DNA of 64,000 nt from Wenyingzhuangia sp. 2_MG-2023 (GTDB taxonomy: Bacteria > Bacteroidota > Bacteroidia > Flavobacteriales > Flavobacteriaceae), in contig NZ_JAUOSB010000001.1 in assembly GCF_030548295.1 (NCBI RefSeq), positions 372,001 through 436,000 of the forward strand, written 5' to 3'. The notes beneath the pieces are model-generated. The model did not search any database, was not told where the DNA came from, and worked only from the letters and a program-made list of their open reading frames with translations. Shown here in pieces: positions 6,252 through 27,220 of the stretch; positions within the stretch are counted from its first letter, which is position 1, and the number at the start of each line of letters is the position of its first letter. The translations under genes were made by a program, and so were the position numbers.

Positions 6252-6333
6252 GCCTAGGTGGCGGAATTGGTAGACGCGCTGGATTCAAAATCCAGTTTCC
6301 TCGGAAGTGCGGGTTCGATTCCCGCCCTAGGTA
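6252..6333 (+). tRNA. tRNA-Leu (anticodon CAA)
   Basis: A class II tRNA of 82 nt. The acceptor arms GCCTAGG and CCTAGGT pair over 7 bp with a terminal G-U, followed by discriminator A at 6333. The anticodon stem CTGGA/TCCAG encloses TTCAAAA, giving anticodon CAA (codon UUG). A variable arm (TCCTCGGAAG region) and the T-arm with GTTCGATTC are present. CCA is not encoded. The 3' part from 6317 is the attachment core of integrative element 1, so the gene remains intact after integration. Confidence 0.96.
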
Positions 6334-6338
6334 CAACA
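6317..6338 (+). repeat. attachment core, tRNA side of element 1
   Basis: A 22-bp repeat, identical to 12592-12613. It covers the T-loop 3' half, the T-stem, the 3' acceptor strand, the discriminator and five following bases of tRNA-Leu. Confidence 0.92.
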
Positions 6339-6340
6339 TT

Positions 6341-6382
6341 AAACCTCAACACTTTGACTATCAAGTGATTGAGGTTTTTTTA
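6341..6382 (+). terminator. terminator of tRNA-Leu, carried on element 1
   Basis: AACCTCA and ACACTT pair with AAGTG and TTGAGGTT, followed by seven T. The stem is identical to the hairpin at 12616-12657 just outside the distal att core, and only the loop differs. The tRNA transcript therefore now ends in a copy that belongs to the element. Confidence 0.85.
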
Positions 6383-6391
6383 TTAAAATAA

Positions 6392-6411
6392 TCCCCACAT
6401 AGTCCCCACAT
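6392..6411 (+). repeat. two 11-bp-spaced TCCCCACAT repeats (left arm sites)
   Basis: TCCCCACAT occurs at 6392-6400 and 6403-6411, in the same orientation and with 11-bp periodicity. The same 9-mer occurs three times at 12451-12481 near the other end. They start 53 bp inside the att core. Likely arm-type binding sites for the integrase or a directionality factor. Confidence 0.7.
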
Positions 6412-6545
6412 ACTATTTTTGTGTTTTAAACTTTTAGGTACTGTAAAAACGTCATATTTATACGCTCAATGGGTTGCAAATGGCATTATGCATATGCTTT
6501 GCACACATTTAAACCCTGTTATATAAATTGTTACTATATAAAAAA

Positions 6546-6567
6546 AGCGTTTCAATTAAGAAACGCC
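6546..6567 (-). terminator. terminator of the element 1 gene cluster
   Basis: On the minus strand GGCGTTTC, a short loop and GAAACGC are followed by a run of T (plus-strand stem 6547-6553 with 6560-6566). It lies about 30 nt beyond the last small gene of the cluster. Confidence 0.8.
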
Positions 6568-6598
6568 TTTTCAAACTAATACAAATAAACAACAAATC

Positions 6599-6745
6599 TT
6601 ATTTAACCATTAAAACCGTTAAATAATCATTGAAAACTAATAAACTCCCTTTTACATGAAATCCTTTTTTGGCTTCATCGTTAATTTTATCATGTAAGTC
6701 TTGAGCTTTTAACTCTTTTATAATTTTATATTCTTTATCTGGCAT
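6599..6745 (-). CDS. 48-aa small protein, translationally coupled
   Basis: A small gene read from the sequence: ATG at 6745-6743, TAA at 6601-6599. Its product starts MPDKEYKIIKELKAQDL and ends YLTVLMVK. The start overlaps the stop of the 230-aa gene by one base (TAATG), a classical coupling arrangement. A terminator follows about 30 nt later. The pattern of alternating charged and hydrophobic residues with an inner Gly is reminiscent of short DUF4177-like proteins, but I do not assign a function. It is likely real because of the coupling, the clean stop and the terminator position. Confidence 0.65.
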   Translation of the reverse strand: MPDKEYKIIKELKAQDLHDKINDEAKKGFHVKGSLLVFNDYLTVLMVK

Positions 6746-7437
6746 TACTCAATTGTTAAGATGTTACTGTAGTCAAAATTAATTTCGTTTAAATCTCTTG
6801 ATAAACCAACTTGGTTAGTGTTGTACATATCACTTTTTAATAAATATGGCTCTATTGGAGCTTTAATATATTTATAGTCTAAGTTTAAAGATTTAGATAC
6901 TTCTACAAACTTTTTAACATTATCAATAAATTTTAGTTGAGTATTGTTTACATAAACGTTAAACGGATCTTCAGGAACTTGAATTTTAAAATTATCTTTT
7001 TTGATTGTTATAAAGTCAAAGAGGCAATACGTTTTTTTAGCTGGTGCTTTAGATAGTAAATTACCGTATTTAGGATCTTGTTTTCTGTATTCGCAAAAAA
7101 AGTAAAACGCATTATTATACTTGTAGAAATCTTTTTTGAAATTTAACCAGCCTTTATAAGTGTTTTCTAATTTTTGCAAACTTACATCTGTCAAACCTCT
7201 GTAATCTAAATATTTTTCAAATGTTGGTTTTGCGGGATCGTTTTGTAATTCTTGTTTGTGATAGTTTAAGAATATTTCAACAAAGTTACCCTCTTTTAAA
7301 GATTCGTAATTTAGGGGTATTGAAACTCTTTGTTTTTTTAATTCTGTTTTTGCATCGTCTAAAATGTTTTTAACGGTGCTTAAAGAATTTATTAAATTGT
7401 TATACTCTGTTGAGTAATTATAAACTTTTGTGTTCAT
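6745..7437 (-). CDS. hypothetical 230-aa protein of element 1
   Basis: Not recognised. The product is 230 aa, Lys/Asn/Tyr-rich, without signal peptide or membrane segments. The N-terminus looks like a short coiled coil (residues 10-40), and the middle is aromatic-rich (YKYNNAFYFFCEY). It is separated from the upstream SF3 helicase gene by a 361-bp non-coding region containing 9-bp iterons, so it may have its own promoter there. It is coupled to the 48-aa gene by TAATG. A role in replication or segregation of the element is only a guess from position. Confidence 0.7.
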   Translation of the reverse strand: MNTKVYNYSTEYNNLINSLSTVKNILDDAKTELKKQRVSIPLNYESLKEGNFVEIFLNYHKQELQNDPAKPTFEKYLDYRGLTDVSLQKLENTYKGWLNFKKDFYKYNNAFYFFCEYRKQDPKYGNLLSKAPAKKTYCLFDFITIKKDNFKIQVPEDPFNVYVNNTQLKFIDNVKKFVEVSKSLNLDYKYIKAPIEPYLLKSDMYNTNQVGLSRDLNEINFDYSNILTIE

Positions 7438-7591
7438 TTTTATGGTGTTATAAATTAAAATTAAATGTGTTTGTTTTGAGTACCATTAAAAAATTAAGGT
7501 GCTCGAGGTTTGAAATTGGGAAACATTTTTATGTATGTTGAGTAGATTAAGTAGAAGTAAATCGAAAAACTATTTCTATATATAAATATCT

Positions 7592-7601
7592 CTCACGTGA
7601 G
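7592..7601. repeat. 10-bp perfect palindrome CTCACGTGAG
   Basis: A perfect palindrome in the non-coding region upstream of the 230-aa gene, 14 bp from the first iteron pair. Candidate operator or part of a replication origin. Confidence 0.45.
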
Positions 7602-7615
7602 TAACTTTTATAAAA

Positions 7616-7818
7616 TACATCTACTACATCTACAAAGTGTATATAAAGCCTTTTAAATACTGAGTTTGTTTAAGTAGATGTAAATTTTTTTACTTCTTGT
7701 TTAGTAGATGTAAATTGTCTTTTGCTTAGTTAGGTTTTAAACAGTTTTATAAAAAACATAAAAAACGTTGTTCTAAAAGCTTGTTACATCTACTACATCT
7801 ACGATTTTAGTAGATGTA
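7616..7818. repeat. iteron cluster: seven copies of TACATCTAC
   Basis: Perfect 9-mers TACATCTAC (or complement GTAGATGTA) occur at 7616-7624, 7625-7633, 7674-7682 (inverted), 7704-7712 (inverted), 7785-7793, 7794-7802 and 7810-7818 (inverted). Two are tandem 18-bp pairs. A weaker version lies around 7541-7560. This fills most of the otherwise gene-free stretch 7438-7798 and runs into the last codons of the SF3 helicase gene. Iterons beside an initiator-type helicase suggest a replication origin. Confidence 0.8.
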
Positions 7819-9274
7819 ATTTAAACTTTGTGATGCCCGAACTTAAACGTTTTTCAAGTGTTAATCCTTTGTATGTAGCCCATACGTTTAACCATTTAAC
7901 AATTGTTTTACTTTTGGTTCTAGTTTCCATACTTACAACCTCATCAACAAATTTTGCAAGCTCTTTTATGTTGTAATACTCATCTGTTTTGTTAAAATGT
8001 GTTTCCATGGCATTAACAAAACTTTTAGATGTGTTGTTCTCAATACTCTTTTTTTCTAATTCAGGACTGTTATACTCAACTAAACCATGGTTTAAATATG
8101 TTTGTATACAGTATATCATAAAAGCATCAAAACACTCATATTCTTTGTGATCCCATTCACTAAAAAAAAGATTCTTAAAATGTTGCTCGGGTTTATGTAA
8201 GCTGTTAAAATAATTGTTAATAAATACCAAATGTTTACGGTCTGTAAAGCTTCCGCCTGTGTTGTTAATGGTGTAGTTTGTAGTTAGGGCAATTTTGGGA
8301 CTATCAATAAAATCTAAGATTATTTTGACTTGATGTTTACGTTCAATACTCATTTTGTCTGTAAGAACTGCAAATAAATCCTCAAAATTAAAAGACTGTT
8401 GTACGTCCTGAAGTAGAAATAAATTTGTTAATAATGTTATTGACTGGAAAACAAATTTATCTTTTGACAAATCAACGTTTTTGCCGTTGTATTCTGCAAT
8501 GTTTAAAAATTGGTGCAATGCCTGTATTAATATTCCTTTTCCGCTTCTACCTTGAGCGGTGTTACTTGCTTGACTAAGTATATCACTTAAAATAATGGCT
8601 TTTGCAATGCTAGGATTTTTATACTTGTGTAGCAAATAACCCAATGCAGTAACAACGTTTAAAAAATGTTTTTCGCTGTTTGTTATTAGTTTTGTAAACT
8701 CATAAAATTGAGCCTGTTTATAGTCTGTGTTTTTGTTGTAGTTCCTTTTTATAATTTGACTTTCATATATAAAATAACCTGGTATAAGTTTGTTGAGTTT
8801 TGAATAGTTATGAAAATTGATAGTATCATTTAACACTACTGTAAAGCCATTTTTAAAACAAATTAGTGCAACCTCTCTAGTATCTTTAAAAGGTTTTAAT
8901 TCAAGTGTTTTTAAACTTCCTAGGGTGGCTTTTTTACTAACTATAATACTTTCAACAATCTTTATATATTCGTTTCTTAGAATATCGTTTTTTTGTCTTT
9001 TAACATACTCTAAACCAAAATTATAAATTTGTTGAGGTGTGTAAATAGTAACTATGTTGTTTTCAAATTTTACAGTCTCATTGTAGCCTTTTATGGATAG
9101 GGTTCTAAAATTATTTAGTTCTAAAAAATCAGTTAATAAACCAGCGTTTATGATAGGCTTTGAGTTTTTAAATACCCAAAACTGTAAAGGTTTTATTTTT
9201 GTATCTTTACTTTGCAAGTTTAAATCAACATCATTATTTACAAGGCTTTGAATATGGTTCTCTTTATTATTCAT
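7799..9274 (-). CDS. SF3/D5-type replication helicase (primase-helicase-like)
   Basis: A 491-aa putative replication protein. A Walker A motif GRSGKG (residues ~242-247) follows an SDILSQASNTAQ segment. Next come an acidic Walker B-like LLQDVQQ and a sensor-type TTNYTINNTGGSFTDRK, a layout typical of superfamily 3 helicases of the phage D5/P4 primase group. The N-terminal ~200 residues show no clear primase catalytic motif, and the C-terminus (~430-490) looks like a winged helix. It probably opens the origin at the iterons lying at and beyond its 3' end. It starts 7 nt after the HTH gene stop. Confidence 0.72.
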   Translation of the reverse strand: MNNKENHIQSLVNNDVDLNLQSKDTKIKPLQFWVFKNSKPIINAGLLTDFLELNNFRTLSIKGYNETVKFENNIVTIYTPQQIYNFGLEYVKRQKNDILRNEYIKIVESIIVSKKATLGSLKTLELKPFKDTREVALICFKNGFTVVLNDTINFHNYSKLNKLIPGYFIYESQIIKRNYNKNTDYKQAQFYEFTKLITNSEKHFLNVVTALGYLLHKYKNPSIAKAIILSDILSQASNTAQGRSGKGILIQALHQFLNIAEYNGKNVDLSKDKFVFQSITLLTNLFLLQDVQQSFNFEDLFAVLTDKMSIERKHQVKIILDFIDSPKIALTTNYTINNTGGSFTDRKHLVFINNYFNSLHKPEQHFKNLFFSEWDHKEYECFDAFMIYCIQTYLNHGLVEYNSPELEKKSIENNTSKSFVNAMETHFNKTDEYYNIKELAKFVDEVVSMETRTKSKTIVKWLNVWATYKGLTLEKRLSSGITKFKLHLLKS

Positions 9275-9281
9275 AGCCTTG

Positions 9282-9560
9282 TTATTTTAGTTTAACAATA
9301 GCTTTCATAATATCGGAACGCTTGTAGTATACACGTCCTTGTAAACCATAAGGAATAAGTTTTCCTTGCTTTTGCCAATTCCATAAGGTAGACTTATCCA
9401 CTTTTAAAAGTGTGGCGGTTTCTTCCCTCGTAAGTAGTTCTTCAGGTTCGGTAAAATATTTTTTAAGTTCCGAAACTTGCTGTTTAACGCTTTCAGTAAT
9501 TGCGTTTTGTAGTTGTTCAGGGTTTACCTGAATAAATTGAATTTGTTGAGTTGTGCTCAT
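9282..9560 (-). CDS. helix-turn-helix protein (MerR/excisionase-like)
   Basis: A 92-aa protein with an N-terminal helical stretch and a C-terminal HTH_17-type domain. Key pieces are LLTREETATLLKV, STLWNWQKQGKL and GRVYYKRSDI. Such proteins serve as excisionases or replication regulators in Bacteroidota elements. It is paralogous to the element 2 protein at 25000-25281 (same LLTREET, STLW and YYK pieces). It lies directly upstream of the SF3 helicase and downstream of a palindrome, so it may control this transcript or excision. Confidence 0.85.
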   Translation of the reverse strand: MSTTQQIQFIQVNPEQLQNAITESVKQQVSELKKYFTEPEELLTREETATLLKVDKSTLWNWQKQGKLIPYGLQGRVYYKRSDIMKAIVKLK

Positions 9561-9600
9561 AACTATTGGTTTTAATTATGAGACAAAATTGGGTTTGTTT

Positions 9601-9642
9601 AAACGGCGTTCTATGGCTGTTTTATGGCGAAATTCGCCGTTT
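9601..9642. repeat. nested inverted repeat upstream of HTH gene
   Basis: AAACGGCG (9601-9608) faces CGCCGTTT (9635-9642), and inside the right half lies a perfect 13-nt hairpin, GGCGAA-A-TTCGCC (9626-9638). It occupies the gap between the 216-aa gene and the HTH gene. There is no T-run after the hairpin on the minus strand, so an operator is more likely than a terminator. Confidence 0.55.
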
Positions 9643-9645
9643 TAT

Positions 9646-10296
9646 TTAAACTGCTATAATACTATTGTAGGTCTTAATTCTACCCTTTGTGAGTATTTTG
9701 CTAGGGCTTAAAAAACAACCGTTTGTTTGTAGAATGTCAAAAGTATTTTGTTCGATATATTTTTTATCTAATGCCCAATTTGAAAGCCCTTTAAAGTCTT
9801 TAGTTCTAAGTTTGTTTTCAACTTTTAGTTTTTGAAAAATAAAACTAATGTTTTTTATAGGATCGGGTTCAAATTGTTTATTTATCCATGTTTCAAATAT
9901 TTCAAAAGCACCATCTTCAAAAATTGAGGGATGTAAATTTGTTACTTTCTCTTTAGATGTGTTTTTTTTATCTTCAGAAATACCGTTTAATTCACTTAGT
10001 AAATTATCTAATTTTTCTAAGAATGGTTTTTTATGGTAAAGTATACTTTCTTTTAATTCTCCTGTTTTTTTATTTTGTAAAATATATTCATTTACTCTTT
10101 TTTCTATTTTATTGTTATTAATATGTCTTATGTATTTGTCATAAAAAAAATCACTCATACAAAGTTTAATAAATTTAGGGTCTGAAAGTTGATTGTTTAA
10201 ATTTTTATAAATATTATCTGGAAATGGTATTTTATCTATTGTATTTTTATAGTTTAGATATGTATGCTTGTGGTCGTTGAAGTCTATATCATCCAT
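9646..10296 (-). CDS. hypothetical protein sharing a C-terminal domain with element 2
   Basis: A 216-aa protein of unknown function. Its last ~95 residues (LHPSIFEDGAFEIFE onwards) align by eye with the end of the 382-aa element 2 protein (LHSHIFVGKAFYVWQ onwards). They share LH..IF...AF, an I.F.F segment, a W and a terminal aromatic region. In both elements the gene lies between integrase and HTH. The N-terminus is Asn/Lys/Tyr-rich without clear motifs. It starts 5 nt after the Fic stop. It may be an accessory factor for recombination or replication, inferred from conserved position only. Confidence 0.7.
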   Translation of the reverse strand: MDDIDFNDHKHTYLNYKNTIDKIPFPDNIYKNLNNQLSDPKFIKLCMSDFFYDKYIRHINNNKIEKRVNEYILQNKKTGELKESILYHKKPFLEKLDNLLSELNGISEDKKNTSKEKVTNLHPSIFEDGAFEIFETWINKQFEPDPIKNISFIFQKLKVENKLRTKDFKGLSNWALDKKYIEQNTFDILQTNGCFLSPSKILTKGRIKTYNSIIAV

Positions 10297-10301
10297 ATTA
10301 T

Positions 10302-11036
10302 TTACTCAAAAATTGATAAAATTCGGTTAATGGTTTCTTTTATGGTGCTTGTTATAAGTTGTATAAAAACCTCTTTGTTGTTTTGCGTTTGTGCAATTTC
10401 TAAGGCATTGTAATAACTTAAACGGCTTTGGTCGTCTCCTTTTAAAATAGCAATAGGATAACCGTTTTGTAATAAAATAAGGTTCATTAACAAACGTGAG
10501 GTTCTACCATTTCCATCTATAAAAGGGTGTATGGTTACTAATCTTTCGTGCATTTCTGCGGATAGTTCAATAGGGTGTAACACTTCTTTGTTTTGGTTAT
10601 ACCATACAAACAAATCTTTCATTTGTTGAGGTATTAAAAGCGGTTGCGGTGGTATGTGCTTTGCCCCACTAATAATTACGGGTACTTTTCTGTAAGTTCC
10701 TGCATTGGGTTTGTCTATGCCTTGTAATATTAAACTGTGAATTTGTAAAATATCCCTTTCGCTAATATTGTTTTTTTCTTTGGCTAGTTCTTTAATATAG
10801 TCAATCGCCTGGGTGTGATTAATGGCTTCTAAGTGTTCGTTTAAAGTTTTTCCCCCAACGGTTAACCCCTTTTCAATTACTAAAGCAGTTTCTTGTAAGG
10901 TTAAAGTGTTTCCCTCTATTTTGTTGCTCTCGTATGTATATTCTATTTCTAAAGCCTTTGTAACCTTTGGGTGTTCTGTTTTACGATATTCGTTTAAACG
11001 GTCTTTAAGTTGATCTATTTCTTTATATGGGTTCAT
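10302..11036 (-). CDS. Fic-domain AMP-transferase with N-terminal inhibitory motif
   Basis: A 244-aa Fic enzyme, predicted to move AMP (or another nucleotide part) onto a target protein hydroxyl. The active-site loop is HPFIDGNGRTSR (His170, Asp174, Asn176, Arg178, Arg181), fully conserved. The substrate flap is around GTYRKVPVII (113-122). The N-terminal inhibitory motif S-x-x-x-E-G is present as SNKIEG (37-42), so this is a self-inhibited class II Fic protein and needs no separate antitoxin. It lies 25 nt after the integrase stop and has no counterpart in element 2. It is the only obvious cargo; the target is unknown, and stress or anti-phage roles are speculative. Confidence 0.93.
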   Translation of the reverse strand: MNPYKEIDQLKDRLNEYRKTEHPKVTKALEIEYTYESNKIEGNTLTLQETALVIEKGLTVGGKTLNEHLEAINHTQAIDYIKELAKEKNNISERDILQIHSLILQGIDKPNAGTYRKVPVIISGAKHIPPQPLLIPQQMKDLFVWYNQNKEVLHPIELSAEMHERLVTIHPFIDGNGRTSRLLMNLILLQNGYPIAILKGDDQSRLSYYNALEIAQTQNNKEVFIQLITSTIKETINRILSIFE

Positions 11037-11061
11037 TGTAATTGTTTATGAATTGATAAAG

Positions 11062-12414
11062 TTAAATTTTAGTTCCTGTTTTTAATACAGTCATTTGTAC
11101 TTTATTACTTTTTTGTAGTTCTTCTTTTACTTTTTGCAATTGGTTGTATTCGTTTCTCATTTTTTTAACCTGTGATAGTTTTCGGCTTCTATCTTGATTA
11201 ACATAGATGTTTACGGTTTCTTCTTTGCTGTGTCCTGTAATGTGTTTTACTTGAGATCCGAAAACTTGATAATAATGCGTTGTTGCTGTTTTTCTTAACG
11301 TGTGTGAGGTTATTAATTGCCATTTAGGAAAAACCCCCTCTATTTTACGTTTACATTTTTTACCGTTAATTTCTACAATTTGAGTAATTGCCCCGTCCGT
11401 AGGTTTGTTAATTTCAGCCAGTTTACAAATTTCTTTTAAATACTCATTAAATCGTTGTTCGGATAATGGAGTAGGTAAACCGTTTTTTATTATTTGCTCA
11501 ATAACCTCATCAATTGGGATCACAATTTCTTTTGTGTTTTGTGATTTTTTTTGAGTGAATACAAAACACTTTGTTAGTTCCCCATCTAAATCGGGGTGGT
11601 ACTTTATATTGTCTTCTGTAAGTGGTAGTAAGTCACTTACTCTTTGTGCCATTTGCAAACCTAATAAGAACCACTTACGAGTATTTAAAAGCCTTTCGTT
11701 TGTGATTTCTAGCTTTATTATGCTTTGTATCTCATCGTTTTCTAAAACAATAGGTTTCGGGTTTCTTCTTTTAATTCTTTTGATGTAATCTAATTCCTGT
11801 GAAGCTGGTATTTTATAACGTCTTGCGTGTCTACCAATAGCAATTAAATCATCTGAATATTTTTTTGCTGTGTTATGACTATAACCCTCTTTGCTAATTT
11901 GCCAATGAATAAAGTTATCGTAAAAGAATTGGTCTATCTCAACAATTTTATAAACGTGGTTTTTTTGATATTTTTTAAAAACATTCAGCAAAGTATTTAA
12001 TTGCTTAATTCTGTTTTTAGATAAACCTTTTTCGCCTATGCTGTTTTCAAATAAGTGTGGATTGTCAATTACAAATTTAATCCAATAGTCAATACTTGCG
12101 TTTTGCTGTTTTTCTTCTTTGTTTGCAAACTTATTAAAAACAGTTTCTAGCCATTTTTTAGAGGGTTCTAAACCCTGTATAGATATATTGTTTAATTCTG
12201 CTTGAATGTGGCTAATTAAAGCATCTAAAACAGTTTTAAGGTTTTTTAAATCGGCGGTTGATTCTTTAGGTCTTTTGGTTTTAGGATTCCATTTATTTAC
12301 ATCAATATTTAACCCTGTAGAAATTGTGTAATCGTGTGTTCGTCCGCTTCTTAATCTTACGTAGATTGTTGAGGTTTTTCCTTTGGTTTTTATAAAAGGT
12401 GTTATACTAGCCAT
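11062..12414 (-). CDS. tyrosine recombinase (integrase) of element 1
   Basis: A 450-aa integrase that should recombine attP with the tRNA-Leu 3' end. An N-terminal arm-binding-like domain and a SAM-like core-binding domain (~100-210) precede the catalytic domain. Catalytic residues are visible in MAQRVSDLL (Arg), SHTLRKTATTHY (His-x-x-Arg), HITGHSKEE (His) and NIYVNQDR (Tyr nucleophile). It is at the tRNA-distal end and divergent from gldC's side. Its -7 box (12444-12437) is immediately preceded by three 11-bp-spaced repeats, which suggests autoregulation. Confidence 0.93.
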   Translation of the reverse strand: MASITPFIKTKGKTSTIYVRLRSGRTHDYTISTGLNIDVNKWNPKTKRPKESTADLKNLKTVLDALISHIQAELNNISIQGLEPSKKWLETVFNKFANKEEKQQNASIDYWIKFVIDNPHLFENSIGEKGLSKNRIKQLNTLLNVFKKYQKNHVYKIVEIDQFFYDNFIHWQISKEGYSHNTAKKYSDDLIAIGRHARRYKIPASQELDYIKRIKRRNPKPIVLENDEIQSIIKLEITNERLLNTRKWFLLGLQMAQRVSDLLPLTEDNIKYHPDLDGELTKCFVFTQKKSQNTKEIVIPIDEVIEQIIKNGLPTPLSEQRFNEYLKEICKLAEINKPTDGAITQIVEINGKKCKRKIEGVFPKWQLITSHTLRKTATTHYYQVFGSQVKHITGHSKEETVNIYVNQDRSRKLSQVKKMRNEYNQLQKVKEELQKSNKVQMTVLKTGTKI

Positions 12415-12436
12415 ATTGGGTTACTTTACTGTATTC

Positions 12437-12444
12437 TAAAGATA
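12437..12444 (-). promoter_or_regulatory. probable -7 box of element 1 integrase
   Basis: TATCTTTA on the minus strand is one base off TAnnTTTG. It is 22 bp upstream of the integrase ATG and 6 bp from the TCCCCACAT repeats, so repeat-bound protein would block or touch the polymerase. Confidence 0.45.
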
Positions 12445-12450
12445 CAACAG

Positions 12451-12481
12451 TCCCCACATAATCCCCACATAGTCCCCACAT
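12451..12481 (+). repeat. three 11-bp-spaced TCCCCACAT repeats (right arm sites)
   Basis: Copies at 12451-12459, 12462-12470 and 12473-12481, all in the same orientation as the pair at 6392-6411. They are 110 bp inside the distal att core and directly upstream of the integrase promoter. Confidence 0.75.
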
Positions 12482-12591
12482 TTTTTAAATCTTATTAAAT
12501 TGCATTAAATCCAATTAGCTGTTAAGCCTTGTTATTACTGGGGTTGTATGTTTTTTTAGATTTTTTAAGATTGATTAAAATCGCTATTGGT

Positions 12592-12613
12592 GATTCCCGC
12601 CCTAGGTACAACA
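12592..12613 (+). repeat. attachment core, distal side of element 1
   Basis: Identical to 6317-6338. This copy is a severed tRNA 3' end with no tRNA 5' part before it. Confidence 0.92.
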
Positions 12614-12657: not shown

Positions 12658-12715
12658 ATAAAAAAACCCTCGAAATTTCATCTTAAAACAAGACTTACAC
12701 ACTATACAATCAAAA

Positions 12716-12742
12716 AACCTCAGCAATTGCTGAGGTTTTTTG
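12716..12742 (-). terminator. terminator after gldC
   Basis: AACCTCAGCAATTGCTGAGGTT is a nearly loopless palindrome flanked by A and T runs, 9-13 nt past the gldC stop. It is symmetrical, so it can work in both directions. Confidence 0.85.
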
Positions 12743-20190: not shown

Positions 20191-20394
20191 TTAATACATC
20201 AATAAATAATTTCGTGTTTTTCCTTTTTTTAAATAGTCTGGTATAGGTGTGTTAAAATAATCTAAACCTTGCTTAGATAAATAGTTTACCAACCTCATCT
20301 TTTCTTGATATTTTTCTGAATCTAGCGAAAAAGTCATCGTTCTTAAGTACCCTAGTATCTGAAAACCTCCTGGATTATATTTAACTAATATCAC
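20191..20394 (-). CDS. small hypothetical protein or gene fragment
   Basis: A 67-aa product from a GTG at 20394, not recognised. It contains KYNPGGFQILGYLRTMTF and ends PDYLKKGKTRNYLLMY. The frame stays open further upstream to about 20455 (LFVFTLPKEKNNKAKTK before the GTG), so either an alternative start such as TTG is used or this is the 3' part of a truncated gene whose 5' end was lost next to the AlbA gene. There is no ribosome site to decide. It could also be non-coding. Confidence 0.35.
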   Translation of the reverse strand: MILVKYNPGGFQILGYLRTMTFSLDSEKYQEKMRLVNYLSKQGLDYFNTPIPDYLKKGKTRNYLLMY

Positions 20395-20454
20395 CTTTGT
20401 TTTAGCTTTATTATTTTTTTCTTTTGGAAGAGTAAAAACAAATAAACTAGCTAG

Positions 20455-20508
20455 TTATCGACCGGTTATCGACCAATCGTTAATTATTTACAGCATTTTG
20501 GTCGATAA
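20455..20508. repeat. TTATCGACC repeats at the end of the AlbA gene
   Basis: Direct copies at 20455-20463 and 20466-20474 (11-bp period), plus an inverted copy GGTCGATAA at 20500-20508 that lies in the last codons of the AlbA gene. Possibly a protein-binding site or the relic of a duplication. Confidence 0.45.
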
Positions 20509-22129
20509 AGTATTTCGTCCCCCTTTTTTCACCTTCTAAACTAATAAGCTTATTATCAATCATTTCATCAAGCTTTCGTTTTACTTTTCGTCTATTAATT
20601 TCTAATCCTATCCTTTGATGGATATCACCAATAGAACAAGGTGCGTATATTTTTAAATCTTCTAAAATGAGGTGCTCTAAACGATGTGGCTCTATTTTCT
20701 TTAAATCTGTTTTTCCTTTGAAATCTACATTTTTTAAGAGTTCTGGATTTAAATAATATTCGGTAGCCTTTGTTTTTCCTTTACTTAAGACAATTTCATT
20801 TTTAAGTAAATCACCCATCCAATACTTTAAAGAATCATTATTTCTTAAGCACAATTTATTTGATAACGCTATAGATGTTAACATACCACTTTGAGCAATT
20901 AAACCTAATGCTATAATCTCTTTTTGGTTTAAATTAAACTCATCATTAACATTAGACATCAACCTAACAACCTCTTTGCTAATTATTTGTTTCTTTAAAG
21001 TCACAATAACTCTATCATCCCACTCTTCTACAACAGGTTCTGGCTTTCCATTAAACAATTGTATTTCAAAAACCTTATCATAACCACTACCTTCTTTTTC
21101 AATCAATTTTAAATCGTGAAAAATTTTAGATAAATGCTGATTACGTTGTACAGATTTAGAAATAATATTTGATGGTGTAACTCCCAAAGGTAATCTACCG
21201 GGTGAATGCACTTCTAGTCTATCGTGATATAAGTTTATAAAAATATCTCCTCGCATTGTATAGACTTTATGCACCAAAGCATTTGCTATAATTTCTCTAA
21301 TCACTTCAATATCATAATTAGGAATTGTTTTTCTAAAAATCCCATCTGATATTTCTATCGATTCTTTCCAATCTGGTAGAGCTATAATTTCATTTAATAA
21401 TTCTTTTGGGTTTTTCGTAAAATCATCCCAAAGCTTTTTATTTATTTTATTACCTCTTTCATCATATTTAATAAACTGAATCGTAGGAGCATAATGTAAT
21501 AACGCTCTATCTTTTCTAGTACCAAACCACAGGACACCTAAGTTTGTTACATGCTCATTTGAGGTTAATAGATAATATTCCAAAAGCTCCTCTCTAGACA
21601 TTTCTCTTACAAAACTACTTATACGCTCTGAATTAATAATATCTAACAACAATGAATCTCTTTTTTGATAATCTATATTTTCTAAAGTAATTTTACGCAC
21701 TACTTTTTCTTCCCAAACAAAGGCTTGTTTTTCCGAAGCAACTCTTGTCATGTCTTCAGGTAAAAGAGGCCTACACTCATCTGCAACATGCATATAATAC
21801 TTTCCACTCGAGGTACAAGCAATAGTTTGACTACTTCTTAGTACTTTTAGATTGATATATTCACCTCCATTTTCTGCTATTTCTATAGAAGGAACAATTC
21901 CAACATTTAAAGTCAATTGTGGTATGGTCTTACTTATTTTATCTACTAATTCGGGTTTTATTTTTTGAGAAGCCTCTGGCAATTCTTCTTCATCTTCTAT
22001 ACCAATATGTATTTCTCCACCAACACCATTAGCAAAACAAACACAATCTTTAGCTAACTCCGCCCAATCAGCAGTTTTACCTTGTACAAGTTTTAATGAC
22101 TTTCTATCAAAATGAGAATTCTCTTCCAT
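20480..22129 (-). CDS. AlbA-domain ATP-binding transcriptional regulator-like protein
   Basis: A 549-aa protein. Residues ~1-130 form the AlbA_2 (Schlafen-like) domain, with HFDRKSLKL, FANGVGGEIHIGIEDE and YYMHVADECRPL. A GHKL-type ATPase part around residues 280-380 follows (REIIANALVHK, LEVHSPGRLPLGV, RNQHLSKIF, EGSGYDKV). The last ~150 residues form one or two winged helices. Proteins of this build (COG2865) are often called putative transcriptional regulators or DNA-binding ATPases and are frequent in accessory regions, but their biochemistry is poorly known. It lies between two nearly identical hairpins (20141 and 22203), next to element 2. Confidence 0.85.
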   Translation of the reverse strand: MEENSHFDRKSLKLVQGKTADWAELAKDCVCFANGVGGEIHIGIEDEEELPEASQKIKPELVDKISKTIPQLTLNVGIVPSIEIAENGGEYINLKVLRSSQTIACTSSGKYYMHVADECRPLLPEDMTRVASEKQAFVWEEKVVRKITLENIDYQKRDSLLLDIINSERISSFVREMSREELLEYYLLTSNEHVTNLGVLWFGTRKDRALLHYAPTIQFIKYDERGNKINKKLWDDFTKNPKELLNEIIALPDWKESIEISDGIFRKTIPNYDIEVIREIIANALVHKVYTMRGDIFINLYHDRLEVHSPGRLPLGVTPSNIISKSVQRNQHLSKIFHDLKLIEKEGSGYDKVFEIQLFNGKPEPVVEEWDDRVIVTLKKQIISKEVVRLMSNVNDEFNLNQKEIIALGLIAQSGMLTSIALSNKLCLRNNDSLKYWMGDLLKNEIVLSKGKTKATEYYLNPELLKNVDFKGKTDLKKIEPHRLEHLILEDLKIYAPCSIGDIHQRIGLEINRRKVKRKLDEMIDNKLISLEGEKRGTKYFIDQNAVNN

Positions 22130-22202
22130 AAATTTTTAACCTAAAAATAAACATTATTTTCAAGCGTAAATTAAAACTTAGTCAAAAAATTGACCCCCAT
22201 AA

Positions 22203-22240: not shown

Positions 22241-22241
22241 T

Positions 22242-22260
22242 TTGTGGAGACGCCGAGAAT
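22242..22260. repeat. attachment core, distal side of element 2
   Basis: TTGTGGAGACGCCGAGAAT, 19 bp, identical to 27202-27220. It is a detached copy of the tmRNA 3' end. Confidence 0.92.
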
Positions 22261-22397
22261 ACAAAAACACAAAACAACGTACTTCACAAATCCGCCTTAT
22301 ATCACAAAAATACTAATAAACTCAACAATACAAAGGGTTTAATAATAAAATTAACTTTTAAACAGATTGTAACAGTTTTCATTAATTTGCAAACAGC

Positions 22398-22428
22398 CGT
22401 ACAAATACCGTACAATAATTTATATTTG
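22398..22428 (+). promoter_or_regulatory. 11-bp-spaced CGTACAA repeats and -7 box of element 2 integrase
   Basis: CGTACAAAT (22398-22406) and CGTACAATA (22409-22417) are 11 bp apart. They are followed at once by the -7 box TATATTTG (22421-22428), which is 22 bp before the integrase ATG. An inverted GTACAATA copy lies at 22429-22436 around the predicted start point. The same pair recurs at 27130-27149. Confidence 0.65.
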
Positions 22429-22450
22429 TATTGTACAAGCAATATCAGTC

Positions 22451-23701
22451 ATGGCAACAATCAACTATTTATATCGTTCAACAAGGGAAAAATCAACCCT
22501 AATTTTGAGACTATTATTTCGCCATAACAACGTTGACTATGCTATTGGAGAAAAAACAAAATTAGAAGTTGAAAAACACTACTGGAGCAAGCAACATAAA
22601 AAGAAATCAAAAGATATTGAAATCACTAATAAACAAACTGAAATCAATAACGAACTCAATAAGCTTGACAATCATATTATAAACGCTTTTAACCTTGTTA
22701 GTCCTGATACAATAAATAAAGAATGGTTAAAAACTCAAATTGACTATTACTACACCCCACCTCAACAAGAAAAAAACATACCTGTCAATTTAGTTGATTA
22801 CATAGATTTTTACAATGAATACAGAAAACATGAGGTAAAAGAAGCTTCTAAAAAAAAGTTTAATGTTATTAAACACAAACTGCAAAGATTTGAAAGCTAT
22901 CGTAAAAAACAAATATTGATTAAAGATGTAAACGATAAATTTAAAAATGAGTTTGTAAACTATCTTAAAAAAGAATTGTACGCACAAAACACAATACAAA
23001 GAGAATTAGCCATTATTAAAACATTTTGTAAACACGCACGATTTTTAGGACTTGAAACACACCCACAATTAGACAGTTTAAGACTTGACAAAGTAAAAGT
23101 TGAAAAAATATACTTAACTATTGAAGAACTAAATAAAATAGAATTAATAAAAAAAGAAAAACTTACTGATAGTTTAGACAATGCAAAAGATTGGTTAATT
23201 ATTAGTTGCTACATGGGGCAAAGAATTTCAGACTTCATGAAATTTACACACGAACAAATAAGAATTGAAAACGATAAACAGTTATTAGAATTTACTCAAA
23301 AGAAAACTGGTAAAAATATGACCATACCACTACACCCCAAAGTACTAGAAATACTAAACAAAAGAAACGGTAAATTTCCTTATTCCATTTCAGACCAAAA
23401 GTATAACGACTACATAAAAGAGGTGTGTAAAATTGCAGAAATTAATTATTTGGTAAATGGTAGTAAAAAAACAGAAACAAAACCTGATAGTGGTATTTAT
23501 AGAAAAAAAACAGATACTTATCCAAAACACAAACTAATAACCTCCCATATTGGAAGACGTAGTTTTGCTACTAACTTTTACGGTAAAATACCTACTACTT
23601 ATTTAATATACATTACAGGACATAGTACGGAATCTATGTTTTTAAATTACATAGGTAAAAGCAACAAAGATTTGGCACTAGAAATAACTAAATACTTTTA
23701 A
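22451..23701 (+). CDS. tyrosine recombinase (integrase) of element 2
   Basis: A 416-aa integrase predicted to target the 3' end of ssrA. After an N-terminal beta-rich arm-binding-type domain comes a SAM-like core-binding domain (~115-205), then the catalytic domain with MGQRISDFM (Arg), SHIGRRSFATNFYG (His-x-x-Arg), ITGHSTESM (His) and LNYIGKS (Tyr nucleophile). It belongs to the same broad Bacteroidota group as the element 1 integrase. The promoter overlaps 11-bp-spaced repeats, as in element 1. Confidence 0.93.
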   Translation: MATINYLYRSTREKSTLILRLLFRHNNVDYAIGEKTKLEVEKHYWSKQHKKKSKDIEITNKQTEINNELNKLDNHIINAFNLVSPDTINKEWLKTQIDYYYTPPQQEKNIPVNLVDYIDFYNEYRKHEVKEASKKKFNVIKHKLQRFESYRKKQILIKDVNDKFKNEFVNYLKKELYAQNTIQRELAIIKTFCKHARFLGLETHPQLDSLRLDKVKVEKIYLTIEELNKIELIKKEKLTDSLDNAKDWLIISCYMGQRISDFMKFTHEQIRIENDKQLLEFTQKKTGKNMTIPLHPKVLEILNKRNGKFPYSISDQKYNDYIKEVCKIAEINYLVNGSKKTETKPDSGIYRKKTDTYPKHKLITSHIGRRSFATNFYGKIPTTYLIYITGHSTESMFLNYIGKSNKDLALEITKYF

Positions 23702-23748
23702 CTTCCTTTTAAAATATCATTTACTTCACTTCTTAAAAGCAATAAACA

Positions 23749-24897
23749 ATGTCAACATACTTTGGTAAAGAAAACCCTCAAAACTTAGAAAATAAATTAA
23801 AAGAACTAAAAAAAAGTAAAGTTGATACTCCACTTCAATACAACAATAAGTTTTTTTATTTTTCTGTATCTGAACAAAAAATATTTGAAGAAAAAGAAGC
23901 CTACAGAAGAAATTACCTAAACAAAAAAAAACCTATGTTTCCTTTCAACTGTATTGATTTAGCACCCGAATATTACCAAATAAAACTTGAAGTTTATTTA
24001 AAAGAAAGTAAACAAACTTTAAGTACTCTTTACAATGAAAAAGAAGAAACAAAAGAATTTTTAACAAAAGAAATAAATAAAACAAACGAGATTATAGAAT
24101 ATAATATTGATTATATCAAACAACACCCAAACTCAAAGTCATTATCACAACACAGAACAAATAAAATCTACAAAGGGTATTTAATGTTTTTAGAAAAAGA
24201 AAAACTAGAACTACAAACCCCAAAAATAAACGAATCCATAAACAATAATCAAAATCTAAATAATTTCAAAAGCAATTATTACTCTGACAGTTGGTATAAA
24301 TACGAAAATGAAGTCAAAAAAATCAACTCTATTGATGATAAAATCAACTACTGGGAAACTAAAATATATTATTATAAAAAAGAAGAATTAGAACTAGAAA
24401 TAGACGGATTACAATCATTGATATTAAGTATAGATTTTGAGTTTAGAAACCCAAAAAACTTATTTGGAATAGGTTTTAAAGTCTTTTGCCTAAATAAAAT
24501 AGAAAAATTAAAGCTAGAAAAAGAGTATAATCCTACACTAAAACCTCAACAAAATACAATTAACGAGAACCTTACAAAACCTGACATCAAAATCAATAAA
24601 AGTGATGAGGTTAAAAAAGATTTACATAGTCATATTTTCGTAGGAAAAGCTTTTTATGTTTGGCAAGGAATGTTTGACAAATTTAAAATTGATAAGAAAA
24701 AAAGAACTGATATTGATTTTATGTTTTCAGTAATGAAACATCATAAATTAATTCATGATAATATTCGATACGTAGATATACAAAACTGGATCAATGATAC
24801 TTATGAAATTGCATTTGAAAAAATAAAATTCACAGACTACAAAGCACAATCAAATGAAAAAAGACTAGTTATTTTCAACCAAATAAAATCCATTTAA
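23749..24897 (+). CDS. coiled-coil hypothetical protein with the shared C-terminal domain
   Basis: A 382-aa Lys/Glu/Asn-rich protein without signal peptide. Long predicted helices cover residues ~75-240 (KESKQTLSTLYNEKEETKEF and others). The last ~90 residues (from DLHSHIFVGKAFYVWQ) match the end of the element 1 216-aa protein by eye. Function unknown. Its fixed place between integrase and HTH in both elements suggests a role in element biology rather than cargo. It starts 47 bp after the integrase stop. Confidence 0.7.
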   Translation: MSTYFGKENPQNLENKLKELKKSKVDTPLQYNNKFFYFSVSEQKIFEEKEAYRRNYLNKKKPMFPFNCIDLAPEYYQIKLEVYLKESKQTLSTLYNEKEETKEFLTKEINKTNEIIEYNIDYIKQHPNSKSLSQHRTNKIYKGYLMFLEKEKLELQTPKINESINNNQNLNNFKSNYYSDSWYKYENEVKKINSIDDKINYWETKIYYYKKEELELEIDGLQSLILSIDFEFRNPKNLFGIGFKVFCLNKIEKLKLEKEYNPTLKPQQNTINENLTKPDIKINKSDEVKKDLHSHIFVGKAFYVWQGMFDKFKIDKKKRTDIDFMFSVMKHHKLIHDNIRYVDIQNWINDTYEIAFEKIKFTDYKAQSNEKRLVIFNQIKSI

Positions 24898-24914
24898 AAA
24901 CAAAGGTATGAAGC

Positions 24915-24930
24915 GTACCCAAAAAGGTAC
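24915..24930. repeat. GTACC/GGTAC inverted repeat upstream of HTH gene
   Basis: GTACC (24915-24919) and GGTAC (24926-24930) form a short inverted repeat. More GGTA and GGGTAC pieces lie around 24905 and 24948. It occupies the 102-bp gap before the HTH gene, the same place as the GGCGAA-A-TTCGCC palindrome of element 1. Candidate operator. Confidence 0.45.
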
Positions 24931-24999
24931 AAAACGCGGTCTTTAAGGGTACAACCCAAAACCAATATTTGCAATGTTAATCACTTAAAAACATTGTAA

Positions 25000-25281
25000 A
25001 TGACACAGTCAATTTTATTGCAAAATGTAAGTCCCGAAACATTAACTCAGTTAATTAAAGAGGGAGTTAAAAGTCAATTAGAAGACTTTAAAAAAACTTT
25101 AAACACTCATAACCCTAATGAGTTGTTAACACGTGAAGAAACGTGTAAATTCCTACAAATAGACTCAAGTACGCTTTGGCACTGGACTAACAAAGGTAAA
25201 GTCAAAGCTTATGGTATTGCAAACCGCCGATACTATAAAAAAGCGGAGTTGTTAGAATGTTTAACACCATTAAAAAAATAA
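25000..25281 (+). CDS. helix-turn-helix protein (MerR/excisionase-like)
   Basis: A 93-aa protein with C-terminal HTH_17 domain: ELLTREETCKFLQI, STLWHWTNKGKV, NRRYYKKAELL. It is clearly paralogous to the element 1 protein at 9282-9560, with both an N-terminal helical region and the same wing. It is followed 4 nt later by the 104-aa gene, so it probably opens the replication operon. Likely excisionase or replication regulator. Confidence 0.85.
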   Translation: MTQSILLQNVSPETLTQLIKEGVKSQLEDFKKTLNTHNPNELLTREETCKFLQIDSSTLWHWTNKGKVKAYGIANRRYYKKAELLECLTPLKK

Positions 25282-25285
25282 GGCT

Positions 25286-25600
25286 ATGAGTACTACCAAT
25301 ACACAAAGCCTTAAAGATAATAGTTATAAGCAAGGCAAAAATACACAAAGAGCAAATCAAAAGAAAACCATATTTCTGTATTTAAAAGAAAACATTGCAA
25401 CAGCTTCAATGGTTTCAGATGCAACAGGTATTCCCCAAAAATCTATTTGTAGATACAAAAGAGATTTAGAAAAAAAAAGGTTACTCTATGAGGTTGAAAA
25501 AAGAACCTGTAAAAAGACAGGGTTCAAAGCATGGTATTTAACTACAAATCCTGAATTGTTTCCTCCGTCAAACCAATTAGATATTCCATTTAACTATTAA
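25286..25600 (+). CDS. small winged-helix-like DNA-binding protein
   Basis: A 104-aa protein. The middle reads ENIATASMVSDATGIPQKS and ICRYKRDLEKKRLLYEVEK, a helix-turn-helix followed by a basic wing. The N-terminus is polar and basic, the C-terminus Pro-rich. Similar small HTH proteins accompany replication genes in Bacteroidota elements. The stop is followed directly by the ATG of the replication gene (0-nt gap), which suggests coupled translation. Confidence 0.65.
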   Translation: MSTTNTQSLKDNSYKQGKNTQRANQKKTIFLYLKENIATASMVSDATGIPQKSICRYKRDLEKKRLLYEVEKRTCKKTGFKAWYLTTNPELFPPSNQLDIPFNY

Positions 25601-26470
25601 ATGTGTAGGTTAAATTATATTCCAATTGATTTTATAAAAGCTGAGGTTATAGGTTTAAGTAAAACAGTTTTTGAAACCAACTCTCTACTAGATTTTATTT
25701 GTAAAGTAAGCACAAGCACTGGAGAAATTTTTGAGTACAAAGAAGCTCGTTTTAAGAATTTTAAAATACAAATATTTAATAGTGGGAGAGTTTGGATTTC
25801 AGGAAGCATTCATATCTATTCTAATGACGGTAAACACAATTATAACGATATGAATCAAAGTTGTTTTCTAAACACCTTAAAACTGCTAAAAAAAGAGTTA
25901 TTAATAGAGCCATTTAATTTAAAAATCCTAAATCTTGAATGGGGTTATAACATCATACCATTATTACTAATGAGTAATTATGTTATAGATAGATGCGTAC
26001 AACATTTATCCGTAGACAAAACCGTAGGAATTGATTGTAAAATAGAGGGTAAATACATTCAATTTAAACACTCTAATTATATTTTAAAAATCTACAATAA
26101 AGGTTTACAGTATAAATTAAATAAAGAGGTTTTAAGGATTGAAGTAAAGCAAATGAATTGGTCTAAATACAGAGCAAAAGGAATCTATACACTTGAAGAC
26201 TTTATAAACTGTGATAAAAAGGTATTTTTTGATGAATTAATTACTCAATGGAACAATATTATTTTTTATGATATTGATAATACAATAACTAAAAAGTATA
26301 TCGAATACCAAACCAATACATTTTGGAACGAGAGAAACAATTTGTATTCAAGAAAAAACAAAAAATATCATTTAGACAAACTAAAAAAGTTAAACAAAAC
26401 TATAGGTTACAACACACAAAACAAAATAGTAGAATTATTAATAAAAAAGGGTAACGAATTACAAGTTTAG
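25601..26470 (+). CDS. putative replication initiator resembling filamentous-phage gene II
   Basis: A 289-aa protein. The segment ISGSIHIYSNDGKHNYND (66-83), then LNLEWGYNI, IYNKGLQY (164-171), LRIEVKQMNW (178-187) and GIYTLEDF follow the pattern I know from gene II/X-type (Phage_CRI, Rep_G2) rolling-circle initiators. If correct it nicks one strand of the excised circle and starts rolling-circle copying. The catalytic Tyr cannot be named. It starts directly at the stop of the 104-aa gene. A 12-bp inverted repeat covers its 3' end and the following gap. Family call by memory of motif spacing only. Confidence 0.5.
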   Translation: MCRLNYIPIDFIKAEVIGLSKTVFETNSLLDFICKVSTSTGEIFEYKEARFKNFKIQIFNSGRVWISGSIHIYSNDGKHNYNDMNQSCFLNTLKLLKKELLIEPFNLKILNLEWGYNIIPLLLMSNYVIDRCVQHLSVDKTVGIDCKIEGKYIQFKHSNYILKIYNKGLQYKLNKEVLRIEVKQMNWSKYRAKGIYTLEDFINCDKKVFFDELITQWNNIIFYDIDNTITKKYIEYQTNTFWNERNNLYSRKNKKYHLDKLKKLNKTIGYNTQNKIVELLIKKGNELQV

Positions 26471-26518
26471 ATTTGGGTAACATATTACATCTTTAATTAT
26501 AGATACAATTCGTTACCC
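26449..26518. repeat. 12-bp inverted repeat GGGTAACGAATT at the end of the rep gene
   Basis: GGGTAACGAATT (26449-26460) and its exact complement AATTCGTTACCC (26507-26518), with a further GGGTAAC at 26475-26481. The 46-bp spacing and lack of a T-run argue against a terminator. Possible rolling-circle origin or initiator-binding site. Confidence 0.55.
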
Positions 26519-26568
26519 ATAACAAACAAATAATCTTCTCTAATTATTTAGGTTTAAAAAATAATAAT

Positions 26569-27117
26569 ATGGCTAAAAATTACACGTTCCCTTTCTTATT
26601 TGATGAGGTTAAAAGTTTATCTATTACAGATTTAAAGAAACTTAAATACCTACAACAAAACTACTTAATTAAGGGAACTGTTAACTGGGTTAGACAAGGA
26701 GAAAACTCAGGAAGTATAAATATCAAAACTTCATTAAATAAAAATGATAATTATGTTGAATTTAATTACATCTGTAATGATATACAACACAATTACAAAG
26801 TTAATTTAGTGTTTACAAAATCAAATCTAAACAAAGGTGATATTTGGTATTTTAAATGCAAATACACTGGAGTAAGATGTAGAAAATTACATTTAATTAA
26901 TGGCATATTTCAACATAGAAGTATTTTAAAAACTGGAATGTACTCAACACAAACCACAAGTAAAAGCTATAGAGAATTAGAAAAAACACATGGAGCGTAT
27001 TTTAAATTTGACATTTACTATACAGAGCTACGTAGTAAATATTTTAAAAAATACTATAGAGGGAAACCAACAAAAAGATATTTACGCTTAATGAAATTAA
27101 CCAGTCAAATACACTAA
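26569..27117 (+). CDS. conserved hypothetical element protein with WYF-C...TG-RCRKL motif
   Basis: A 182-aa basic protein. The striking motif W93-Y-F-x-C97-x-x-T-G101-x-R-C104-R-K-L recurs, as far as I remember, in hypothetical proteins of integrative elements and phages. The two Cys could bind metal with other residues (His118 nearby). Residues 37-80 look beta-rich (GTVNWVRQGENSGSINIK). The C-terminus is very basic (KKYYRGKPTKRYLRL), suggesting nucleic-acid binding. No function is assigned. It is the gene nearest to the ssrA att site. Confidence 0.65.
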   Translation: MAKNYTFPFLFDEVKSLSITDLKKLKYLQQNYLIKGTVNWVRQGENSGSINIKTSLNKNDNYVEFNYICNDIQHNYKVNLVFTKSNLNKGDIWYFKCKYTGVRCRKLHLINGIFQHRSILKTGMYSTQTTSKSYRELEKTHGAYFKFDIYYTELRSKYFKKYYRGKPTKRYLRLMKLTSQIH

Positions 27118-27129
27118 AAGAACACCGAC

Positions 27130-27149
27130 CGTACATAAATCGTACAATT
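27130..27149 (+). repeat. two 11-bp-spaced CGTACA repeats (right arm sites)
   Basis: CGTACATAA at 27130-27138 and CGTACAATT at 27141-27149, in the same orientation and period as those at 22398-22417. They end 52 bp from the att core, against 53 bp in element 1. Confidence 0.65.
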
Positions 27150-27158
27150 AAAAAAATA

Positions 27159-27200
27159 AAAAAACCTAAACACCTACAAGTAAGTTGTTTAGGTTTTTTA
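27159..27200 (-). terminator. ssrA terminator supplied by element 2
   Basis: AACCTAAAC (27163-27171) pairs with GTTTAGGTT (27187-27195). On the minus strand a long T-run follows (complement of the A-rich 27149-27164). It stands directly behind the tmRNA 3' end but lies inside the element. Confidence 0.8.
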
Positions 27201-27201
27201 A

Positions 27202-27220
27202 TTGTGGAGACGCCGAGAAT
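27202..27220. repeat. attachment core, ssrA side of element 2
   Basis: The 19-bp repeat identical to 22242-22260. It forms the 3' acceptor strand and part of the T-stem of the tmRNA. Confidence 0.92.

Follow-up and report, generated by a model that had tools for sequence, protein, structure and literature searches.

In the papers cited here, phage satellites are described from Gram-positive cocci, several Gram-negative groups and some marine bacteria. Phage-inducible chromosomal islands (PICIs), in the account of PMC6092414, carry int, a regulator gene (alpA or merR), a primase or replication gene, interference genes and sometimes terS, and in the Staphylococcus aureus pathogenicity islands (SaPIs) accessory genes are placed either distally or between the regulator gene and int. 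The phage-inducible chromosomal minimalist islands (PICMIs) presented in PMC10803314 are small elements at fis in Vibrionaceae, with an integrase, an AlpA-type helix-turn-helix (HTH) protein, a DUF3987/DUF5906 replication protein, defence cargo and, in most subfamilies, a variable gene between alpA and prim; the search model given there uses Pfam families for the integrase (PF00589), AlpA (PF05930 or PF12728) and the primase (DUF3987 or DUF5906). Two integrative elements of related layout, element 1 (E1, 6317-12613) and element 2 (E2, 22242-27220), were analysed here in a 64,000-nt stretch (the window) of Wenyingzhuangia sp. 2_MG-2023 (NZ_JAUOSB010000001.1, 372,001-436,000; host genome code G000); L-numbers below denote loci or contigs compared with it (L100 being a locus from the W. 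marina record), G-numbers genomes of genus mates, and X the protein encoded between integrase and HTH gene. In the main text of PMC10803314 neither 'Bacteroid' nor 'tRNA' occurs, and 'Bacteroid' does not occur in that of PMC6092414; a literature search gave no account of phage satellites in Bacteroidota among the matches listed, which is not proof that none exists.

Both elements encoded the PICMI marker families PF00589 and PF12728, and showed the PICI-type traits of specific attachment (att) sites and an AlpA-type regulator followed by a replication gene. The HTH_17 gene directly preceded the replication module in E1, while in E2 a single 104-aa gene lay between, comparable to the variable gene of PICMIs (PMC10803314), and the position of the Fic gene in E1 resembled that of SaPI accessory genes (PMC6092414). 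The PICMI primase families DUF3987 and DUF5906 were found in several relatives; by direct Pfam search neither matched in E1 (linked to DUF5906 only via the relative L083) or in E2. E1 and E2 differ from the PICMIs described in PMC10803314 in lying in tRNA-Leu and tmRNA genes of Bacteroidota, in having X followed by its own putative operator, and in that the present elements exchange the replication module for other families; since site, phylum and module range differ, they were not filed as PICMIs. A difference from the PICIs of PMC6092414, likened here by description to a family known from its genes alone, is that terS was met only in contig L117. Tycheposons, a proposed satellite family with a tyrosine recombinase at a tRNA gene, are similar by description only, being 4-200 kb in size and reported from Prochlorococcus and Methylophilaceae (PMC10872708, PMC11389934). 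Integrated elements with archaeo-eukaryotic primases have direct repeats, in many cases in tRNA genes, but are sorted by primase family in the survey of PMC5862659, whereas here one chassis carries many replication modules. By analogy, the content of the family is close to that of Gram-negative PICIs and closer still to that of PICMIs, and on present evidence E1 and E2 would work like satellites.

E1 and E2 almost certainly belong to a single modular family of Bacteroidota integrative elements, 5-12 kb in size. As described in a first-pass annotation of the window, they were bounded by end repeats in different RNA genes. For E1 this was an exact 22-bp repeat at the 3' end of tRNA-Leu(CAA), extending to 78 nt at 90%, and for E2 a 19-bp repeat at the 3' end of tmRNA (Table 1). 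Both integrases were tyrosine recombinases (PF00589, PF13102; 27% identical), and the HTH proteins were 44% identical over 91 residues (E 4e-27 in a single comparison) with PF12728 matches in each, which agreed with the earlier view of a paralogous pair preceded by palindromes. The same annotation had proposed a shared C-terminal domain in the two X proteins, between which BLASTP detected no similarity; profiles did, and the profile comparison that it had named as a possible refutation was run. The last 113 residues of E1 X aligned over 87 columns with a 29-row family alignment lacking E1 and E2 (hhalign 96.3%, E 1.9e-9 for one comparison, score 52.7), against a best score of 21.8 for 100 shuffles and 9-14 for six X proteins of other types; the regions are thus divergent but related. 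A hidden Markov model (HMM) from 12 relatives excluding E1 and E2 retrieved E2 at 1e-36 and E1 at 1e-4 (4e-7 in the next round); against this kinship, E1 dropped out in HMMER iterations three and four under default filters. The final domain HMM located the domain, called type A, in X of 29 loci and of E2, and in one open reading frame (ORF) downstream of HTH in L101. Pfam and NCBIfam gave no convincing name to the shared-domain proteins or to the two replication proteins of E1 and E2.

The replication modules differed in kind, as had been noted earlier: a superfamily 3 (SF3)-type helicase with iterons in E1 versus a gene II-type initiator in E2. The E1 protein contained a Walker A motif (GRSGKG), a Walker B-like FLLQDV and TTN, a motif set that we take to be that of SF3, and the L083 DUF5906 protein could be aligned with it; Pfam itself returned no match of the helicase or DUF5906 kind for the E1 protein. 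The iteron AGTAGATGTAAAT (up to 2 mismatches) matched the window 17 times (shuffles: 4.2 +/- 1.9), and six of the matches lay within 7550-7821. For the E2 initiator, which had no match in a direct Pfam search, alignment to Phage_CRI (gene II) gave an hhalign probability of 96.2% (E 2.1e-9 for one comparison, 197 columns; 4 of 7 Phage_CRI matches from 247 genomes of the phylum were used in the alignment), and nine control families stayed below 0.5%. Its AlphaFold2 (AF2) model (mean predicted local distance difference test score, pLDDT, 73.6) resembled TATA-binding proteins and the Geobacillus rolling-circle initiator 4cij (E 6.7e-4), with TM-scores that were all low. No phage record matched the E2 initiator, and in sequence searches of PDB neither of the two replication proteins nor the X domain had a useful match. 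A search of the 247 genomes for Rep_trans (PF02486) gave no match.

Table 1. Features of E1, E2 and their integration targets in the window.
Feature	Position	Strand	Evidence or remark
tRNA-Leu(CAA), E1 integration target	6252..6334	+	ARAGORN, Rfam
E1 att repeat, distal copy in tRNA 3' end	6317..6338		exact repeat
E1 ORF of 230 aa	6745..7437	-	family searches, no significant family
Iteron cluster, putative E1 replication origin	7550..7821		
E1 SF3-type replicative helicase	7799..9274	-	phrog_28855 5e-44; motifs; DUF5906 relative L083
E1 HTH_17 (AlpA/excisionase-like) protein	9282..9560	-	PF12728 7e-11; phrog_66
E1 palindrome CTCATAA-N13-TTATGAG (7-bp arms) over HTH start codon	9556..9582		
E1 distal palindrome GGCGAAATTCGCC, putative X operator	9626..9638		
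E1 X protein, C-terminal ~100 residues a divergent type A domain	9646..10296	-	hhalign E 1.9e-9; HMM rounds 1-2
E1 cargo Fic, likely defence or toxin type	10302..11036	-	PF02661 8e-25; PADLOC SoFic 6e-35
E1 tyrosine integrase	11062..12414	-	PF00589, PF13102, PF17293
E1 att repeat, integrase-side copy	12592..12613		exact repeat
E2 att repeat, integrase side	22242..22260		19-bp exact repeat
E2 tyrosine integrase	22451..23701	+	PF13102, PF00589
E2 X protein	23749..24897	+	C-terminal type A domain at 24556-24894
E2 distal operator (putative) GTACCCAAAAAG-N14-CTTTAAGGGTAC	24915..24952		
E2 proximal palindrome ATTTGCAATGTT-N11-AACATTGTAAAT at HTH start	24967..25001		
E2 HTH_17 protein	25000..25281	+	PF12728 2e-11; 44% to E1 HTH
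E2 small protein, 104 aa	25286..25600	+	phrog_1123 3e-7; cluster c0, with proteins from 17 other loci
E2 gene II-type rolling-circle replication initiator	25601..26470	+	hhalign to Phage_CRI; AF2 model
E2 182-aa protein, cluster c3	26569..27117	+	clustered with proteins of 10 other loci
E2 att repeat in tmRNA 3' end	27202..27220		19-bp exact repeat; empty site in L226, L228
tmRNA gene, E2 integration target	27204..27601	-	

A species-genome collection was scanned with an HTH alignment, and 80 of the 89 relatives found were kept. Of these, 64 lay downstream of a related integrase, 14 had no integrase called and 2 gave no HTH ORF; a tRNA or tmRNA gene terminated 31 of the 64 integrase-HTH loci. 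Of the chassis described in the first-pass annotation, integrase and HTH recurred together; the shared domain turned out to be one of several types at its position and is not constant in the family. An RNA-gene att, defined as an exact repeat of at least 13 bp joining a point ~115-250 bp before the integrase to a far-end RNA gene (no shuffle control), was found in 34 of 67 elements (the 64 loci plus E1, E2 and L021), with 5.0-12.3 kb between the repeats, and in all 34 the RNA gene lay in the same orientation at the end away from the integrase. The remaining 33 elements gave no such att and weigh against this picture; some were cut by contig ends, and others may use other sites.

The genes following HTH fell under 13 labels and at least seven distinct protein families (DUF5906, DUF3987, AAA_25, Rep_1, gene II-type, Lin1244_N and superfamily 2 (SF2) helicase), named by scanning representatives and extending the name to other members by cluster. 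They comprised D5_N/DUF5906/Pox_D5 proteins with DUF6371 and a zinc ribbon; other DUF5906-type helicases, including a cluster with that of E1; DUF3987 proteins with or without a BT4734-type primase; BT4734-type primases with PriCT_1; AAA_25 helicases; a CHC2-zinc-finger/Toprim-like primase fused to AAA_25; Rep_1, gene II-type and Lin1244_N-type initiators; unnamed modules; and SF2 helicases, possibly cargo. On a quick maximum-likelihood integrase tree of 65 rows (truncated integrases of L051, L067 and L085 left out; long-branch warning for L112 and L021), the replication labels, in 14 groups (the 13 labels plus four rows pooled as a mixed 'other' group), required 39 changes, relative to a minimum of 13 and a shuffled mean of 45.6 (none of 200 shuffles as low); the 61 labelled rows alone required 35. 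These values point to some inheritance with the chassis and much exchange, so that the idea of one family with swappable replication parts found support outside the window.

Exchange was also visible within the genus. The closest integrase relative of E1 in the set, an element of W. marina (integrase 81-82%, HTH 70% identical), occupied the same tRNA-Leu and adjoined the same 313-aa gene as the E1 site, presumably encoding ribose-phosphate pyrophosphokinase. Where E1 has its SF3-type helicase and Fic, this element carried an E2-type gene II-like initiator and a 1103-aa Eco57I/MmeI (type IIG-like) restriction protein; neither Fic nor X was found in it. The pair at one tRNA-Leu site represents module exchange within one genus. 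A third family element of the host genome, L021 (contig C88, 5918-13020, in tRNA-Arg), has an E1-type HTH (78%), but its initiator is of the gene II type; it also contains an ORF of 1035 aa. The Fic cargo that the first-pass annotation had placed between integrase and X of E1 was confirmed, and among 72 cargo proteins scanned (69 of 92 listed cargo ORFs, picked by hand, plus three window ORFs) defence-type cargo, assigned by homology, consisted of SoFic-like Fic, two Eco57I/type IIG-like proteins, two C5 methylases and one TIR domain. The cluster c3 protein, conserved and ~190 aa long (182 aa in E2), was observed recurrently downstream of replication genes, in 10 other loci and in L162 (4582-5175).

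The X proteins, absent in 3 of the 64 loci, had a variable N-terminus and a C-terminus of type A (35, including E1 and E2), B (13), C (5), D (3) or single types. For the statistics, type A was a BLAST cluster, of which L037, L054, L091 and L113 were unsupported by the domain HMM, and 8 of 63 elements had no assigned type. A whole-protein MAFFT alignment of nine X proteins was uninformative because the N-terminal parts differ. The AlphaFold2 model of the type A domain (31 sequences, mean pLDDT 83.5) had five helices, and a fold search of PDB and BFVD returned no match with E <0.7. An RteC-like (CTnDOT) ancestry was considered as a conceivable source of the X domain. By eye, 12 of the 13 spacers after X in the main A group contained GTACCCAAAAAG...CTTTTAGGGTAC or something close to it, 9 of 13 in type B had repeated AGTAC/GTACC, and 4 of 5 in type C had GGGA/CCTA-type repeats. 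Strongly similar spacer pairs shared the X type in 107 of 111 cases, compared with 686 of 1953 for all pairs, and a partial Mantel test with integrase and HTH similarity removed gave r 0.19 (p 1/2001) for spacer against X type. In 12 A-group elements (L046 left out) the operator was more alike than adjacent coding DNA in 64 of 66 pairs (84% vs 67%), a difference favoured by anchoring the windows on the motif. A second palindrome, over the HTH start, was strong (score >=8) in 13 of 62 regions and in 16 of 620 shuffles. Since the type of the C-terminus correlates with a specific sequence ahead of the HTH gene, X is likely to be an operator-binding switch that regulates the HTH operon as repressor or activator. 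The association has points against it: other type A subtypes have other spacer sequences, the E1 spacer resembles no other, the Mantel r is small, and neighbourhood alone may explain part of it. On these comparisons the X slot, with at least four C-terminal types, is itself swappable and tracks a cognate putative operator.

Whether such elements still move bears on the suggestion that they are prophage remnants, that is, relatives of the phage contigs L137 and L138 that lost their virion genes and became immobile. The integrase, X, HTH, DUF5906 and DUF6371 proteins that these two contigs have in common with the small elements would fit such a descent. Intact att repeats, open reading frames and precise empty sites in two genus mates, together with the same compact order in many genera, a circular member and repeated module exchange, fit active elements instead and make decay to remnants improbable. 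The empty sites concern E2: in two of six genus mates (W. marina, L226; G004, L228) the tmRNA end directly joined the sequence to the left of E2. The adjoining stretch 15925-22198, with a 1186-aa ORF of signal-peptide-like start and a 549-aa ORF (AlbA_2, HATPase_c_4), was also missing from these mates, in which the gene corresponding to window 15467-15904 abuts the tmRNA end.

At the E1 site, mates G002, G004 and G006 had a tRNA-Leu with a single core and no element within 1.5 kb beyond, followed by a 332-aa gene; a clean empty junction could not be read in the mates because of a nearby rearrangement. A segment of ~22-28 kb, running, as we take it, from tRNA-Leu to recA, appears inverted in the host genome relative to genus mates, and both junctions carry an identical 30-bp perfect palindrome (window 12712-12741; L241 2684-2713). 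E1 was considered as the maker of this inversion and dropped, the palindrome lying ~100 bp outside E1 in the window.

A circular form and links to phages were seen in IMG/VR contigs. L117 (6,925 bp) was a circular contig with a 99-bp terminal repeat containing one N, and read around the circle encoded HTH, a c0 protein, AAA_25-type and DUF6371-type proteins (both assigned by cluster), small ORFs, a small terminase, a 13-bp att core also present in L039-L041, integrase and X; no RNA gene was found in it. Its small terminase (Terminase_2, 2.4e-14) was identical at 71 of 122 residues to that of phage contig L137, and an HMM of seven phage large terminases (TerLs) found no match in L117. In L137 (= L124) the family integrase, X, HTH, DUF5906 and DUF6371 proteins were followed by SPP1_portal, Terminase_2, Terminase_6N and tail genes, and L138 (= L126) had the same gene set by homology. 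Terminal repeats were present in 7 of 99 IMG/VR loci examined, of which L117 and the larger L172 (12.2 kb) had both family integrase and HTH. The tailed-phage contigs L119 (695-994) and L118 (9974-10273) encoded HTH proteins 56% and 64% identical, respectively, to family HTHs, that of L119 immediately ahead of the genes for portal, protease and major head proteins. Further relatives outside the present set are suggested by L145, L146, L147 and L162; these contigs measure 4.7-7.8 kb and have terminal repeats and modules of AAA_25 or DUF5906 plus DUF6371, joined in L147 by X- and HTH-like genes.

The small terminase of L117 and the phage contigs with the same front half point to phages as the vehicle, and a phage-satellite (PICI/PICMI-like) lifestyle with phage-dependent transfer is moderately probable for most family members. 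The same observations speak against integrative mobilizable elements, whose excised form would be carried by a co-resident conjugative element via an origin of transfer (oriT) alone or with the initiator acting as relaxase. Such a route would draw on the gene II-type initiators of E2, L021, L100 and others, a class that can nick DNA, on the likewise nicking-capable Rep_1 type in L047, L107 and L111 (Pfam match for L107, the others by cluster), and on the one PF03432 relaxase of the host genome, which also weighs against satellites. It is rather unlikely, given that no relaxase family was found by Pfam in E1 or E2 or among 25 of 27 families listed for the 72 cargo proteins, and that no nicking enzyme was noticed in elements with SF3-type, DUF3987 or AAA_25 modules. 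Self-replicating integrative plasmids, transmitted by transformation or in vesicles and independent of any fixed helper, would account for the plasmid-like modules (iterons, gene II-type, Rep_1) and for circular contigs, such as L146 (4.7 kb), in which a DUF6371 module was seen but no integrase was called; the HTH query (E 1e-5) matched none of 72,556 plasmid records, and this alternative is highly improbable.

In the satellite reading, the tyrosine integrase inserts the element at the 3' end of either a tRNA or a tmRNA gene, as the repeats and, for E2, the empty sites show. X would most likely bind the operator directly upstream of the HTH gene via its C-terminal domain and act as a switch, and HTH_17 would, by its family, most likely act like AlpA of known satellites in driving excision and replication. 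The element would then excise as a circle, as read from L117, and replicate by its own module, be it an SF3-type helicase, a DUF3987 primase-helicase, an AAA_25 helicase, or a Rep_1 or gene II-type initiator. A tailed helper phage would most likely package the copies, as happens with PICIs and PICMIs, and anti-phage cargo, for example Fic or restriction enzymes, may repay the host. Several points count against the satellite lifestyle, for which induction, packaging and transfer are deduced from gene content. Among the small elements, L117 alone yielded a small terminase, and a narrow three-sequence small-terminase HMM (E 0.1) found none in the window or in L037-L116. The host genome had no Terminase_2 or Terminase_6N match (the only terminase families searched), and so no resident helper of those types. 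The HTH query matched no record among 50,697 phages, and the IMG/VR listing of L117 as viral is no proof of presence in a virion.

A tentative and more far-reaching possibility is that these are Bacteroidota-wide phage satellites assembled from plug-in cassettes, in which trigger, replication machine and defence cargo change independently while integrase and HTH are kept. X might then join a highly variable N-terminus, which perhaps senses a single helper phage, to a C-terminal DNA-binding domain drawn from at least four kinds (for type A no fold match is known), and would move together with its own operator. Bacteroidota are abundant in the sea and the gut. If the satellite reading is true, this abundant phylum carries a large satellite family with interchangeable replication genes, and X with its putative operator would offer a direct handle on how such elements get switched on.

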